Assembly (NCBI GenBank): GCA_903911435.1
Contig: CAIWDF010000184.1
Coordinates: 1-44,143, forward strand
DNA from: an uncultured Bacteroidota bacterium
GTDB lineage: Bacteria > Bacteroidota > Bacteroidia > 2-12-FULL-35-15
Length of the DNA: 44,143 bases
Direction: 5' to 3'
The notes beneath the pieces are model-generated. The model did not search any database. It was not told the DNA's origin and worked only from the letters and a program-made list of their open reading frames with translations. Positions within the stretch are counted from its first letter, which is position 1; each line of letters starts with the position of its first letter. Shown in pieces: positions 39,329-44,143 of the stretch. Both the position numbers and the translations under genes were made by a program.

Positions 39329-40315
39329 TTAAAATTCTTTTTCGCCTTCCATGCCAAACAATTTACCCGCTTTCCATTCCTTCAAGTCGTCTTTCATCAA
39401 CTTGCTATTTCTGTCGGTTACTTCTTTTGCATCCAAATCATTCAAGTCGGGTTTGCCAGCATTCACCCATGCTGTGTACCAAAAACTAGCTACACTCTTG
39501 GTTGATAACTTCATTTGATTTTCAACCATACCCTGCAAGTTGGTATGTAATGCAGTTGCATATTCATCGCTAAAAATAGAGCTACGGAATTTGTTCTTCA
39601 TCACTTCTCCCTTTTCATCTTTTTTGTACATTTTAGCTTCTCCCATTTTCTTTCTCAATTCCATCTCTATGTCGAGCGTTTTGGCAACAAGAGCATGTGA
39701 CGAATTGATGATGTTCCATATTTCGTTATGCACATTATCGATGTATTTAGCATCGCCACAATACAAGTTGTACTTACTGCCAAACATCTCAGGCAGCTGA
39801 GCTTCCCACAGGGCATGTATTCCTTTTTGATTTGTTTTTTGTCCATCATGATTGGCCGAAGTATGAAATGGCATATGTGCATCGCCAATGTAATGCCCCA
39901 AATCAGCAGCAATGAAAAGAATTTCTGTTTTCCTTTTTTCTTTCATCGACTTGGTAAGTTTCTCCATCATCTCTTCGATGTACCAAGGCAAAAATCCATT
40001 AGCCGAAAGGAACTTATCATCATACTTGGCTTTTGCTTCGCCCATTGTTTTTGGCAAACTATCCATCGAACCAAAGTTTTCTAAATCGATGAAGTGGCGA
40101 GGGTTTTCAGCTTTATCACTCAAGGTATATTTTCGCAAATCAGGAACGGTTGATTCTTGTGTCACAAAATCGATGTGATTGTAAAAGAAGGTTTGCATCG
40201 GTTGAGGCAAAGCCAGCACAGCTCCTTTATTGATGTGTTCGTGGCCGAATATTCCCCACGAGACCAATACTGCTGAGATGCTCACTGCACCGATTACTAA
40301 AATTGTTTTTTTCAT
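39329..40315 (-). CDS. S1/P1-type nuclease or zinc phospholipase C family protein
   Basis: A 328-residue exported protein of the P1 nuclease/phospholipase C superfamily. Trp20, right after the signal peptide (LVSWGIFGHEHIN), fits the known use of the mature N-terminal Trp as a zinc ligand, and His residues follow. Further ligands lie in ENPRHFIDLE and the long block AADLGHYIGDAHMPFHTSANHDG...GIHALWEAQ. Both P1 nucleases (single-stranded DNA/RNA to 5' nucleotides) and phospholipases C share this trizinc site; sequence alone does not decide. The adjacent phosphatase favours a nutrient-scavenging nuclease. The crcB gene lies 4 bp upstream on the same strand. Confidence 0.88.
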   Translation of the reverse strand: MKKTILVIGAVSISAVLVSWGIFGHEHINKGAVLALPQPMQTFFYNHIDFVTQESTVPDLRKYTLSDKAENPRHFIDLENFGSMDSLPKTMGEAKAKYDDKFLSANGFLPWYIEEMMEKLTKSMKEKRKTEILFIAADLGHYIGDAHMPFHTSANHDGQKTNQKGIHALWEAQLPEMFGSKYNLYCGDAKYIDNVHNEIWNIINSSHALVAKTLDIEMELRKKMGEAKMYKKDEKGEVMKNKFRSSIFSDEYATALHTNLQGMVENQMKLSTKSVASFWYTAWVNAGKPDLNDLDAKEVTDRNSKLMKDDLKEWKAGKLFGMEGEKEF

Positions 40316-40319
40316 ATAA

Positions 40320-40688
40320 TTAAATTGAATGTTTGGTTAAAAAATAAATTAGCGAAACACATACTGCCACGCTGATAAGTATATTGGCAATGGCTACTAA
40401 CGCATTGCCTGTACGGAAAAGTTCTACTGTCTCGAAACTAAAAGTAGAAAACGTAGAGAACCCTCCACAAAAACCTACCACTATCAAAACACGTAGTGTA
40501 GGGTTGTTTCCCACTTTCTCAGTAAAAAAACCTACTGCTAGTGCAAGTACTATGCAACTAATGATATTCGAAAGTAGCGTAGCAAGCGGGAATACCGATT
40601 TGAATTGCTGACGTACCAATTCCGAAATTCCATACCGAGCAATGCTCCCTAAACCTCCTCCCAAAAATACTAAGAATAGATTATTCAT
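40320..40688 (-). CDS. crcB: Fluoride channel Fluc
   Basis: A 122-residue, four-helix membrane protein that forms a dual-topology dimer and exports F-. The family motifs are GGGLGSIARYGISELV in helix 1, the pore segment LLSNIISCIVLALAVGFF with Asn, and GFCGGFSTFSTFSFETVEL, which carries the Phe-box and Na+-binding break of helix 3. Length is normal for a single-gene Fluc. I see no fluoride riboswitch in the short leader. It is the first gene of the leftward set that continues into the S1/P1 nuclease (4-bp gap). Confidence 0.95.
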   Translation of the reverse strand: MNNLFLVFLGGGLGSIARYGISELVRQQFKSVFPLATLLSNIISCIVLALAVGFFTEKVGNNPTLRVLIVVGFCGGFSTFSTFSFETVELFRTGNALVAIANILISVAVCVSLIYFLTKHSI

Positions 40689-40724
40689 ACATTATTCCAA
40701 CGTTATGCTTTTGTATTACGGGCG

Positions 40725-40732
40725 CAAATGTA
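40725..40732 (-). promoter_or_regulatory. -7 element (TAnnTTTG) for the crcB transcript
   Basis: The minus strand reads TACATTTG, a full consensus match, 36 bp upstream of the crcB start codon. No clear -33 TTTG is present. Confidence 0.5.
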
Positions 40733-40758
40733 AACATTGAAAAGCATTTTTTCAGGCT

Positions 40759-40792
40759 TTTGTAATTCGATAATTCAAATAATGTAATTTCG
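40759..40792 (+). promoter_or_regulatory. Candidate promoter of the TerB-DnaJ gene
   Basis: TTTG at 40759-40762 and TAATTTCG at 40785-40792 are spaced by 22 bp; the -7 element has one mismatch. It is 21 bp before the ATG at 40814 and back to back with the crcB promoter. Confidence 0.4.
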
Positions 40793-40813
40793 CACTAAAT
40801 AATTAAAACAAAA

Positions 40814-41557
40814 ATGGCGAAAATAAAATTTGGTAAATGGGTAGGTAGTGGCTTAGGATGGGCGTTTGGAGGCCCTTTGGGTGCAGTGTTGGGTTTTGCA
40901 CTAGGCTCAGCGTTTGATGCTGCCGATGTTACCGTGCAACGCGATGGCAAAACCACCTATAGTTCGTCACAGCCTCAAGTAGGCGACTTTGCAGCCAGTT
41001 TGCTCGTACTTTCGGCTGCCGTGATGAAAAGCGATGGCAAAATGATGAAAAGCGAACTTGAATTTGTGCGCAAGTTCCTTGTTCAGCAGTTTGGCGAAGA
41101 CCATGCTATGCAGCAAATGCTTTTGCTCAAAGAAATTATTAAACAAGAAATCCCTTTACAACAAGTTTGTTTTCAAATAAAGCAATACATGCCTGTGGCC
41201 GAACGATTGCAAATCATTCATTACCTATTTGGCATTTCGAAAGCCGATGGACATGTGCACGAGCTCGAACTACAAACGATACAAACCATTTCTAATTACC
41301 TTGGCATCAACCCTGCCGACTTTGGTTCCCTCAAAGCCATGTATTTCCGCGATGTGAACAGCGATTATCAAATACTCGAAATAGAACCAACTGCTTCGGA
41401 AGAAGAAATTAAAAAGGCATATCGAAGAATGGCGGTAAAATATCACCCCGACAAGGTTATTTCGCTTGGCGAAGAAGTTCAAAAAGCGGCTAAAGAAAAG
41501 TTCCAAGTGCTTCAGGCCGCTTACGAAAACATCAAAAAACAAAGAGGGATATCTTAG
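40814..41557 (+). CDS. DjlA-like co-chaperone (TerB plus J domain)
   Basis: A 247-residue protein in three parts. The N-terminus is a glycine-rich hydrophobic segment (GLGWAFGGPLGAVLGFALGSAF) that could anchor it to the membrane. Residues ~55-165 are a TerB-like helical domain with acidic residues in VLSAAVMKSDGKMMKSELEFV and GISKADGHVHELELQTI. The C-terminal ~65 residues are a J domain with HPD at 211-213 (MAVKYHPDKV), which stimulates DnaK. The order matches DjlA of Gram-negative bacteria, although the membrane segment is shorter. It is monocistronic and followed by the decayed phosphatase region. Confidence 0.92.
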   Translation: MAKIKFGKWVGSGLGWAFGGPLGAVLGFALGSAFDAADVTVQRDGKTTYSSSQPQVGDFAASLLVLSAAVMKSDGKMMKSELEFVRKFLVQQFGEDHAMQQMLLLKEIIKQEIPLQQVCFQIKQYMPVAERLQIIHYLFGISKADGHVHELELQTIQTISNYLGINPADFGSLKAMYFRDVNSDYQILEIEPTASEEEIKKAYRRMAVKYHPDKVISLGEEVQKAAKEKFQVLQAAYENIKKQRGIS

Positions 41558-41652: not shown

Positions 41653-41958
41653 TTACACCATTACGTCCATCACAAGTATGTCGTCTATCTGTTCTATATC
41701 TTTTCTGTAGTCTATAATAAACGTTTCTAAGGCAATACCTTGTTCATGTAGTGTTTTGTCTTATACTGATAAAATTAAATCGTTGAATCGATTCTTGGTT
41801 AATTTCTTTTGCCCAGTTTCACCACCAAATTGGTCAGCAAATCCATCAGTAAATAAATCCTATCTCCATCATTTAAAGAAAATGAATGGTTAGTAAAAGG
41901 TCTGCTATTTTCATTCATTCCAATTGGTTGTTTGTCGTCTTGTACGGTTTTAAATTGT
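41653..41958 (-). pseudogene. Remnant of a SpoIIE/PP2C-type phosphatase C-terminus
   Basis: Read on the minus strand, the DNA encodes about 100 codons of a PP2C/SpoIIE phosphatase tail split across two frames. The first part reads KQPIGMNENSRPFTNHSFSL then NDGDRIY. A frameshift follows, and the next frame gives FTDGFADQFGGETGQKKLTKNRF and NDLILSV. An in-frame TAA then stands where a Gln would be expected (CAA to TAA), followed by DKTLHEQGIALETFI... to VMDVMV and a proper stop at 41653. The TDGxxDQFGG metal-binding motif is diagnostic. The N-terminal catalytic part is missing. The fragment lies 18 bp after the bactofilin-like gene, so it was probably the last gene of that operon. Confidence 0.8.
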
Positions 41959-41976
41959 GCTTGCAAATTGAGTTGG

Positions 41977-42951
41977 CTATTTGAATTTCTCTACGATGTC
42001 TTTCATGCTGAACTCACCCGACATTTCTTGAATGTCAATCTTGCCAAGTAAAATGTCAAAGAAAAAGTTTGAAATATTTTCAATTGTCAACGATTTGCCT
42101 TCGCCTCCATTTTCAATTCCCAAGTCATAAGTTCTAAGCAACTGCGAACCAAGAGAGGCAGCAGTCAAAAGAAAATGATTGTTGAATTTGTCAATGTCTA
42201 AAAGGTCTGCCGCCAAAACTTTTCCGATAACGGTGTAACTACGAATAATTTGTTGTGTGTCTTCTGAACGCAAAACTGATTTTAATTCATCTGCTTCCAT
42301 ACTCATTTTAATTTTGCCTGAATTTTTTGATTGTTCTTGTCCTTTGAAAAGAGAACCTAAGTCAGCCAAGCTCAAATTATACATTTCAGTCCCAGGTATT
42401 GCGTTAATTTTCTCAACTGTAAATGCACTCGGCAAAAGTAAGTGAACCACTTTTGAAATTCTTGCAAGTGGAGCGTTAAATGTTCCTATAATAGAATTGT
42501 TGATTTCAAGATTCAATGAAGCAAACACACCACCAATTACAACACAATCTTCCAAAACAATTTCGTCTGCAAAAATGCTTCCAGCAATAAAAGCATTACG
42601 TAATTTCACTTGCTTCGCATTTACATCACCTTGGAAAATTACACGGTAACTTGGAGCAAGTGAAACGATTGAATCGGCAGAACCAACAGCTTTGCGAAAA
42701 ATTGCTGAACCTTTTGCATCAGTATTTACATGCAATTCAATTTGTGTGAAAACAGCACCTTGCACTTCAAGTTTTCCTTTTTGAATTTCAAAGTATTTTG
42801 CATACACCGCACCTTCAATAATTGTGTCGCCTTGTATTACAACATCTCTTTCCAATTCGCTAGCTGCTCTCGGAAGTATTGAACTTTTTACAAGATTATC
42901 ATTCAGTAATAATCTTTGGTCGTTCACTCGGATTTCTTTTAATTCATTCAT
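41977..42951 (-). CDS. Bactofilin-like polymer-forming protein
   Basis: A 324-residue soluble protein. Residues ~30-165 have short beta-helix repeats with hydrophobic residues every second position, of the form 'VxxGxVxAxxVxL': VVIQGDTIIEGAVYAKYFEIQKG, AVFTQIELHVNTDAKGSAIFRK, VIFQGDVNAKQVKLRNAFIAGSIFADEIVLEDCVVIGGVFA. This is the pattern of bactofilins and other polymer-forming cytoskeletal proteins, but longer than a usual bactofilin (~100-150 residues). The remaining ~150 residues are helical and of no known family. There is no signal peptide or membrane helix. It sits 12 bp after the coiled-coil gene, in an operon-like set. Function inferred only. Confidence 0.6.
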   Translation of the reverse strand: MNELKEIRVNDQRLLLNDNLVKSSILPRAASELERDVVIQGDTIIEGAVYAKYFEIQKGKLEVQGAVFTQIELHVNTDAKGSAIFRKAVGSADSIVSLAPSYRVIFQGDVNAKQVKLRNAFIAGSIFADEIVLEDCVVIGGVFASLNLEINNSIIGTFNAPLARISKVVHLLLPSAFTVEKINAIPGTEMYNLSLADLGSLFKGQEQSKNSGKIKMSMEADELKSVLRSEDTQQIIRSYTVIGKVLAADLLDIDKFNNHFLLTAASLGSQLLRTYDLGIENGGEGKSLTIENISNFFFDILLGKIDIQEMSGEFSMKDIVEKFK

Positions 42952-42963
42952 TGGACTTAAATT

Positions 42964-44022
42964 TTAATTATTGGTTTGTATGTTAGTGTCATTGTTCCAA
43001 AGCTGCATGATTTGTTGTGCAACTCTCGGATTGATATTGTGTGTTTCGCTTTCCTGACTTGATAATTCAACTTTCAAAAATGTATTTATATGTTCTCTGT
43101 TCTTTGAATCAATGGTTTTCCATTTGCTAACAGAATTTGAAAAGCTATCTTTTAGTTTTGCCTTGTTAGATACCAATGTGGGAATTTGTTGAGAAGAAAC
43201 TATTGCAACATCATTTCCATTTTCTTGATTCTTACTTTCAAAATATAAAACAGGGATATTTCTTGTAACTACAACTCCAATTTCCATTGGAATTAAAATT
43301 TCTTGTAACTGTGCCGAAAGATTTTTTTCAGAAAACAAATAATGTTTTGCGTTGTCAATCAATGAAAGTGCTTTGCTTTTCAAGCCCGAAGCGAAAAGCA
43401 TGGATTGAAGATAATTACCTTCCTTGTTGTAAATGGTTGCGATACTTGTGCTGATGTCGCTGAATGAACGATGCACGCGGGTTGTAAGTGTTCCGTGAAC
43501 TCCAACTGCTGATTGATTCAACAAAAGAATTCTATTCCGCAATTCTTTGTCTAAGTCAAAAAATATTTTTGCATATCGCTCCGAAATTCTGCCAAAGTCG
43601 CCTTCCAATTGAACTTTCTTTTGAGCACACGTTTGTTGATGTTGCATCAACTCAATTATTAATGCTTCAACTCTTGGTTTTATTTCTGTGAGTTGTTGAT
43701 TGATTTCAGATTTTATCAATCCGAAAAATCCCTCAACCATTGTATCAGAAATATCTTCTGCACTTTTAACTTTTGCAGCTATGTGTGCGGCTTCTGTTGC
43801 TACTACTGAACCAGTAAGAAAATTGACTTGTCTATTTGCCGAACTCACGCTTCTATCAAAAGGATTGGTGTCAACATTAATTCTAACATTAACTGGAACA
43901 TGCTCCGTGTAATGAACTGTAACAGTCATGCTTCCTCCTGATTCAGACTTCGGATAGGATACGGTTTTAGATTCTGAACCGTTGACTGTAATTGTTTCGT
44001 GATAATCTCTTGAATAACTCAT
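42964..44022 (-). CDS. Coiled-coil protein with beta-rich head, unknown family
   Basis: A 352-residue cytoplasmic protein that I cannot assign. Residues ~1-60 are beta-strand-rich (DYHETITVNGSESKTVSYP; GSMTVTVHYTEHVPVNVRINVDTNPFD). Residues ~60-235 are long amphipathic helices, probably coiled coil, including INQQLTEIKPRVEALIIELMQHQQTCAQKK and RISERYAKIFFDLDKELRNRILLL. Residues ~235-300 return to strands (EIGVVVTRNIPVLYFESK) and the tail is helical. The ordered domain pattern and tight spacing (4 bp after the upstream stop, 12 bp before the next gene) argue for a structural component of a multi-gene system with the bactofilin-like protein. Confidence 0.65.
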   Translation of the reverse strand: MSYSRDYHETITVNGSESKTVSYPKSESGGSMTVTVHYTEHVPVNVRINVDTNPFDRSVSSANRQVNFLTGSVVATEAAHIAAKVKSAEDISDTMVEGFFGLIKSEINQQLTEIKPRVEALIIELMQHQQTCAQKKVQLEGDFGRISERYAKIFFDLDKELRNRILLLNQSAVGVHGTLTTRVHRSFSDISTSIATIYNKEGNYLQSMLFASGLKSKALSLIDNAKHYLFSEKNLSAQLQEILIPMEIGVVVTRNIPVLYFESKNQENGNDVAIVSSQQIPTLVSNKAKLKDSFSNSVSKWKTIDSKNREHINTFLKVELSSQESETHNINPRVAQQIMQLWNNDTNIQTNN

Positions 44023-44026
44023 AGGA

Positions 44027-44143
44027 TTAAGAATTTAATTTTTGCCATTTAGATGATTCAAGTAAAGACAACATTTGATTTTTCACTCTATCGGAAACAG
44101 TGGATTGATTTACAAAATTTCCAAACTCTTGTTTTACACGACT
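44027..44143 (-). CDS. C-terminal end of an unknown protein, cut by window edge
   Basis: The last 38 residues of a gene entering from the right edge are open on the minus strand and end at a TAA at 44027-44029. They read as a helical tail (VKQEFGNFVNQSTVSDRVKNQ then SLLESSKWQKLNS). The stop lies 4 bp before the start of the coiled-coil gene, so this is very likely the upstream member of the same operon. Too little is visible to suggest a function. Confidence 0.6.
   Translation of the reverse strand, partial: SRVKQEFGNFVNQSTVSDRVKNQMLSLLESSKWQKLNS

Follow-up and report, generated by a model that had tools for sequence, protein, structure and literature searches.

A conserved operon linking an SPFH protein to membrane, long-helix and beta-helix proteins as a candidate membrane scaffold in Bacteroidota

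In Bacillus subtilis, PspA, an ESCRT-III-type polymer, is localized to the membrane by YdjI, an SPFH/zinc-ribbon protein that is needed for this step together with the membrane proteins YdjG and YdjH (PMC8581546). The architecture of YdjI consists of an SPFH domain and zinc ribbons (PMC11237479), and Band-7 proteins have been tied to PspA operons in comparative surveys (PMC11237479, PMC10936438). The partners of bacterial SPFH proteins are mostly unknown. The bactofilins (PF04519) are a second group with which the present locus can be compared, and they are reported to direct morphogenesis (PMC10945521).

The window, which is the whole stretch of DNA that was analyzed, is a complete contig (C184, 44143 bp) from an assembly of 312 contigs that is 99.6% complete. 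The operon sits at the right end of this contig, which stops at 44143. Of the minus-strand units described in the first-pass annotation, reading frames of 352 and 324 amino acids are present with spacings of 4 and 12 bp, as is a third unit that is cut by the contig end. It also placed partners beyond 44143, and two short contigs of the assembly supply them, namely the SPFH protein, a 236-aa protein, CC637 and the full P304. One end of C18 (4014 bp) overlaps window positions 43754-44143 (L009:3625-4014) end to end over 390 bp at 96%, while its other end (L009:1-912) overlaps C136 (3048 bp; L016:2137-3048) over 912 bp at 93%. The differences of 4% and 7% in the two overlaps, which match exactly at their ends, are explained either by strain variation within the bin or by two operon copies in one genome. 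The join C184-C18-C136 is safe as a gene order because other genomes show the same order. The features are as follows:

L016:1038-2285, contig C136: gene 1, SPFH/Band-7 protein with C-terminal zinc ribbons, YdjI-like, 415 aa
L009:152-862, contig C18: gene 2, four-helix (4-TM) membrane protein, 236 aa
L009:882-2795, contig C18: gene 3, CC637, one-helix membrane protein with coiled coil, 637 aa
L009:2827-3741, contig C18: gene 4, P304, helical protein, 304 aa, complete
44027..44143, minus strand: 3' end of P304 (last 38 codons and stop), a frame entering from the contig end
42964..44022, minus strand: gene 5, P352, 352 aa, paralogue of P304, open reading frame with 31 homologues aligned
41977..42951, minus strand: gene 6 (last), BH324, 324 aa, bactofilin-like beta-helix protein, open reading frame with homologues
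41653..41976, minus strand: outside the operon, 3' relic of a SpoIIE/PP2C-type phosphatase, frameshifted, a two-frame fragment

The P304 stop is separated from the P352 start by 4 bp and P352 from BH324 by 12 bp, and intergenic gaps across the homologous loci are mostly -4 to 27 bp. Family profile searches found no enzyme family above cut-off in any of the six operon proteins. Two genes lie upstream on the same strand (L016:105-637), one YidD-like and the other for a small DUF4177-like protein; they are not conserved as operon members.

The unit at about 41653-41976 was initially taken as a PP2C/SpoIIE phosphatase of the operon. The residues of its SpoIIE C-terminus are split over two frames, its match to PF07228 (E=0.001) is below the cut-off, and it shares about 70% DNA identity with phosphatase genes elsewhere in the genome, which has similar genes at four further positions. 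No match to these genes was obtained at any of the 39 homologous loci described below. This unit was rejected as an operon member, being a frameshifted relic that is not conserved and adjoins the operon by accident. A phospho-regulated assembly, in which a PP2C phosphatase acts with kinase and vWA partners, could appeal to the position of the fragment directly downstream of the operon in this one genome. However, such an assembly is very improbable, as none of the 39 loci contains the frameshifted fragment, their flanks show no recurrent kinase, vWA or PP2C gene, and the true upstream genes encode SPFH and membrane proteins. Because the upstream genes encode two membrane proteins along with a protein of SPFH/zinc-ribbon type, a membrane or envelope scaffold is indicated rather than a kinase/phosphatase switch.

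Homologous loci were sought in 84,980 species genomes with CC637 as the sole query. Two of the three rows in the scan alignment were synthetic and steered the pattern search to motifs judged conserved, and confirmation was made with the real protein. Loci were typed by open reading frame calling and comparison with the six proteins of the window genome. The scan yielded 39 further loci, mostly in Bacteroidota (Bacteroidales, Flavobacteriales, Chitinophagales and Marinilabiliales), together with Ignavibacteriota and one Firestonebacteria bin. P304, P352 and BH324 follow CC637 on the same strand and in the same order at all 31 loci where the contig is long enough, and elsewhere the contig stops first. 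The SPFH and 236-aa genes stand upstream of CC637 in 27 loci; five loci are truncated by the contig and seven have unrelated genes at this position. Comparison of the window genes with near relatives gave dN/dS values of 0.10-0.22 for P352 and 0.05-0.09 for BH324, and codon comparison thus places them under strong purifying selection (0.05-0.22). With relatives at 39 loci and these ratios, they are real genes and not chance reading frames. The unit is a real six-gene operon with a four-gene core. The proposal of an undescribed operon was borne out in that homologues co-occur in a fixed order, so they are not singletons in unrelated neighborhoods. Because this order is fixed and a beta-helix is predicted for the 324-aa protein (see below), neither of the two outcomes held to speak against the operon occurred. 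Genes in the flanks recur only among near relatives. At one locus (L082:10001-13124), CC637 lies in two frames in its bin, which is a pseudogene or a sequencing error.

The seven carriers that lack the SPFH/membrane pair indicate that the four genes from CC637 onward can exist by themselves. A genome-wide search of five of these seven carriers, with three positive-control genomes alongside, gave no SPFH domain match, and two of the five gave weak matches to zinc ribbons only. The SPFH link therefore cannot be essential to the job of the core. In the phylogeny of CC637, the five rows lacking SPFH that were included cluster together (SH-aLRT 96) and are nested inside the others, and loss of the SPFH/4-TM pair in this group would be the simpler reading. 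The SPFH-less group shows that the four-gene core performs a task in its own right.

Among described systems, pspA-ydjGHI, the PSP envelope-stress system of B. subtilis, resembles the operon in that the genes of a cytoplasmic SPFH/Band-7 protein with C-terminal zinc ribbons, of integral membrane proteins and of helical proteins stand together. The SPFH protein of the operon matches PF13421 (Band_7_1) at 119.4 bits against a cut-off of 24, and Zn_Ribbon_1 and DZR are above cut-off at its C-terminus. The 236-aa protein has four hydrophobic segments and no family match. CC637 has a single strongly hydrophobic segment of membrane length at residues 61-87, and none that strong is present in the remaining operon proteins. 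Its conserved region of about 600 residues shows 50-57% identity in most relatives. The tail of CC637 is variable, long and acidic in many relatives, and contains zinc ribbons in a few (L054:10001-12412, L059:10001-12391), echoing the tail of the SPFH protein. In contrast to pspA-ydjGHI, there is no PspA in the operon or the genome. The remaining five genes have no Pfam match to PspA, to the TPM domain of YdjH or to the zinc-ribbon membrane protein YdjG, and the operon additionally encodes a pair of long-helix paralogues and a beta-helix protein. PspA (PF04012) was absent from the window genome and from 17 of 18 other carriers, in a search that was positive in 9 of 14 control genomes. Labilibaculum filiforme 59.16B (locus L064), a cultured carrier, does possess a PspA gene. 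The missing PspA is weak evidence of replacement because Bacteroidota may usually lack PspA.

P304 and P352 share 27% identity (hhalign probability 100), and by this profile comparison they are paralogous families. No relation between P352 and CC637 was found by profile, and the four core families have no relatives among PDB sequences, where the two marginal matches fall on acidic tails. The AlphaFold2 model of P352 contains a long N-terminal beta-hairpin, a helix of about 136 residues, a second long helix and a small beta/alpha tail. Its pLDDT of 72 and pTM of 0.24 make the secondary structure usable and the overall shape not. The model supports the earlier description of a coiled-coil protein with a beta-rich head. 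The likeness of these proteins to PspA/Vipp1 (ESCRT-III-like) is that long-helix proteins are encoded with an SPFH protein. They differ in that a sequence relation of P304/P352 to E. coli PspA is undetectable (hhalign probability 0.1% and 1.7%), so that identity with PspA was rejected, and in that P352 has a beta-hairpin at its start and a small mixed domain at its end. Comparison of the P352 model with the ESCRT-III fold gave no clear fold match at this low global confidence. Resemblances of the model to coiled coils and to the stems of pore toxins, with Z <=6 and limited to a single hairpin or helix, were set aside as uninformative.

BH324 has 29 homologues at 49-88% identity. Its AlphaFold2 model consists of a beta-helix at about residues 10-195 and a conserved helical C-terminal domain (pLDDT 84, pTM 0.84), as the first reading had anticipated, and pLDDT is mostly >94 at residues 40-170. 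The best structural match is the tapirin beta-helix 6n2c (Z 13.7, rmsd 2.6, 194 residues aligned). The solved bactofilin 6ria ranked 27 in Foldseek and was not among the VIA matches listed, which tells nothing either way. BH324 is like bactofilins in its beta-helix core and in a weak family similarity along part of the helix. In contrast to bactofilins, its beta-helix is longer (about 185 residues) and is followed by a conserved helical domain, and BH324 stands in the operon at every locus found, the loci being CC637-derived and solo copies elsewhere being possible. A Pfam match of BH324 to CdiI_3 (17 bits against a cut-off of 28, in 3 of 30 members) was dropped, and cas_Csa4 and other marginal matches were under cut-off.

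The likeness to bactofilins bears on a cell-shape or cytoskeletal module. In such a module, BH324 would form a filament of bactofilin type to position machinery of the cell wall or cell surface, and the remaining proteins would act as adaptors. The beta-helix model fits such a module, as do weak PF04519 matches in 25 of 30 BH324 members (E up to 0.1; best 2.3e-4) and the reported morphogenetic role of bactofilins (PMC10945521). However, the window copy of BH324 scores 14 bits against the Pfam cut-off of 27.9 and carries an extra helical domain, no peptidoglycan enzyme recurs beside the operon (M23 is encoded by 2 of the 119 flanking genes), and the distribution is too patchy for a basic shape determinant. 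A shape module is accordingly doubtful.

The operon is distributed patchily. P352 was found in 0 of 35 same-genus genomes and CC637 in 0 of 394 other sampled genomes of the phylum, while 8 of 101 sampled genomes are carriers in the genus of an Alistipes carrier. At window positions 39329-41557, genes for an S1/P1-type nuclease, a CrcB fluoride channel and a TerB/DnaJ-type djlA-like protein keep their order in the closest relatives. There, djlA is followed by a different set of genes and the operon is absent, so the operon side is the variable side. The CC637 tree mixes orders, although bins can hold foreign contigs. Since the closest relatives lack the operon and the tree mixes orders, horizontal spread of the operon is suggested. 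CC637 gave no match in searches of 72,556 plasmids and 50,697 phages, P352 gave none in plasmids, and neither these two proteins nor the P304/P352 pair gave a match in viral contigs.

Such a distribution could also be expected of an anti-phage or conflict system, in which a membrane complex senses or limits infection and phage selection lies behind the patchy horizontal spread. The contrast between the empty genus and phylum samples and the Alistipes genus would agree with this explanation, as would the mixed orders of the tree and the relatives lacking the operon after djlA; in one close relative, an AbiEi/AbiEii-type pair is located directly downstream of the operon (L050:7284-8917). In contrast, P352 and BH324, the two proteins scanned, have no match in PADLOC, where new systems would not be found, and none of the PADLOC families listed was matched by more than one of the 119 flanking genes. 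The flanks are largely unrelated and include housekeeping genes, CC637 is absent from the plasmids and phages searched, and no nuclease, NTPase or toxin-like effector is encoded. A defense role is not indicated, and a conflict system is unlikely.

Because no recognized enzyme is encoded and the operon, under strong purifying selection, is intact in three or more lineages, it must build something. At about an even chance, the six-gene operon encodes a membrane-anchored, non-enzymatic scaffold that resembles pspA-ydjGHI of B. subtilis, with new proteins replacing PspA. This reading draws on the gene order, tight spacing, conservation across several phyla, purifying selection, self-sufficient core and lack of a recognized enzyme domain, which are established at the level of sequence. 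Beyond the finding that membrane, long-helix and beta-helix proteins are encoded in a conserved operon, each step is one that we infer. In this scaffold, the SPFH protein would form a ring or cage below the inner membrane, held by the 4-TM protein. CC637 would serve as anchor and hub through its single membrane helix, its large conserved cytoplasmic domain and its often long acidic tail. P304 and P352 may pair through their long helices to form rods, whereas BH324 may stack by its beta-helix in a bactofilin-like manner and cap or cross-link the rods. These three proteins would constitute the polymer part of the membrane-attached scaffold. The assembly would stabilize or remodel damaged membrane, comparable to PspA-YdjG/H-YdjI in Bacillus subtilis, with the new proteins as the polymer in genomes that mostly lack PspA. 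More tentatively, the last four genes might form a self-contained, membrane-anchored rod-and-filament machine built from families without known relatives, to which the SPFH protein and its 4-TM anchor were added or from which they were lost in one clade.

The operon couples an SPFH protein to three families without assigned function and to a beta-helix protein, in genomes mostly without PspA. Searches of 5.39 million open-access papers gave no description of such operons, and none of these papers mentions both 'SPFH' and 'bactofilin'; most subscription papers and preprints lie outside this scope. The operon could represent a new form of SPFH-linked membrane scaffold, and the core has an open chance of being a new type of structure. 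If this is true, the rod-and-filament core would add a new kind to the membrane-associated structures of bacteria, one that is present in cultured Bacteroidota. It can now be tested what SPFH proteins scaffold without PspA and whether bactofilin-like proteins act in membrane protection. The four-gene form is a natural deletion by which the function of the core can be told apart from what SPFH contributes.

Other SPFH genes were also encountered. The SPFH gene that comes next in similarity in the phylum sample (G158, 45%) was set aside, as its neighborhood differs. In other Bacteroidota, a different SPFH gene stands beside zinc-ribbon proteins at two loci that contain no core genes (L047:1125-2968 and L048:9300-11333), and these are possibly ydjGHI-like systems without PspA.
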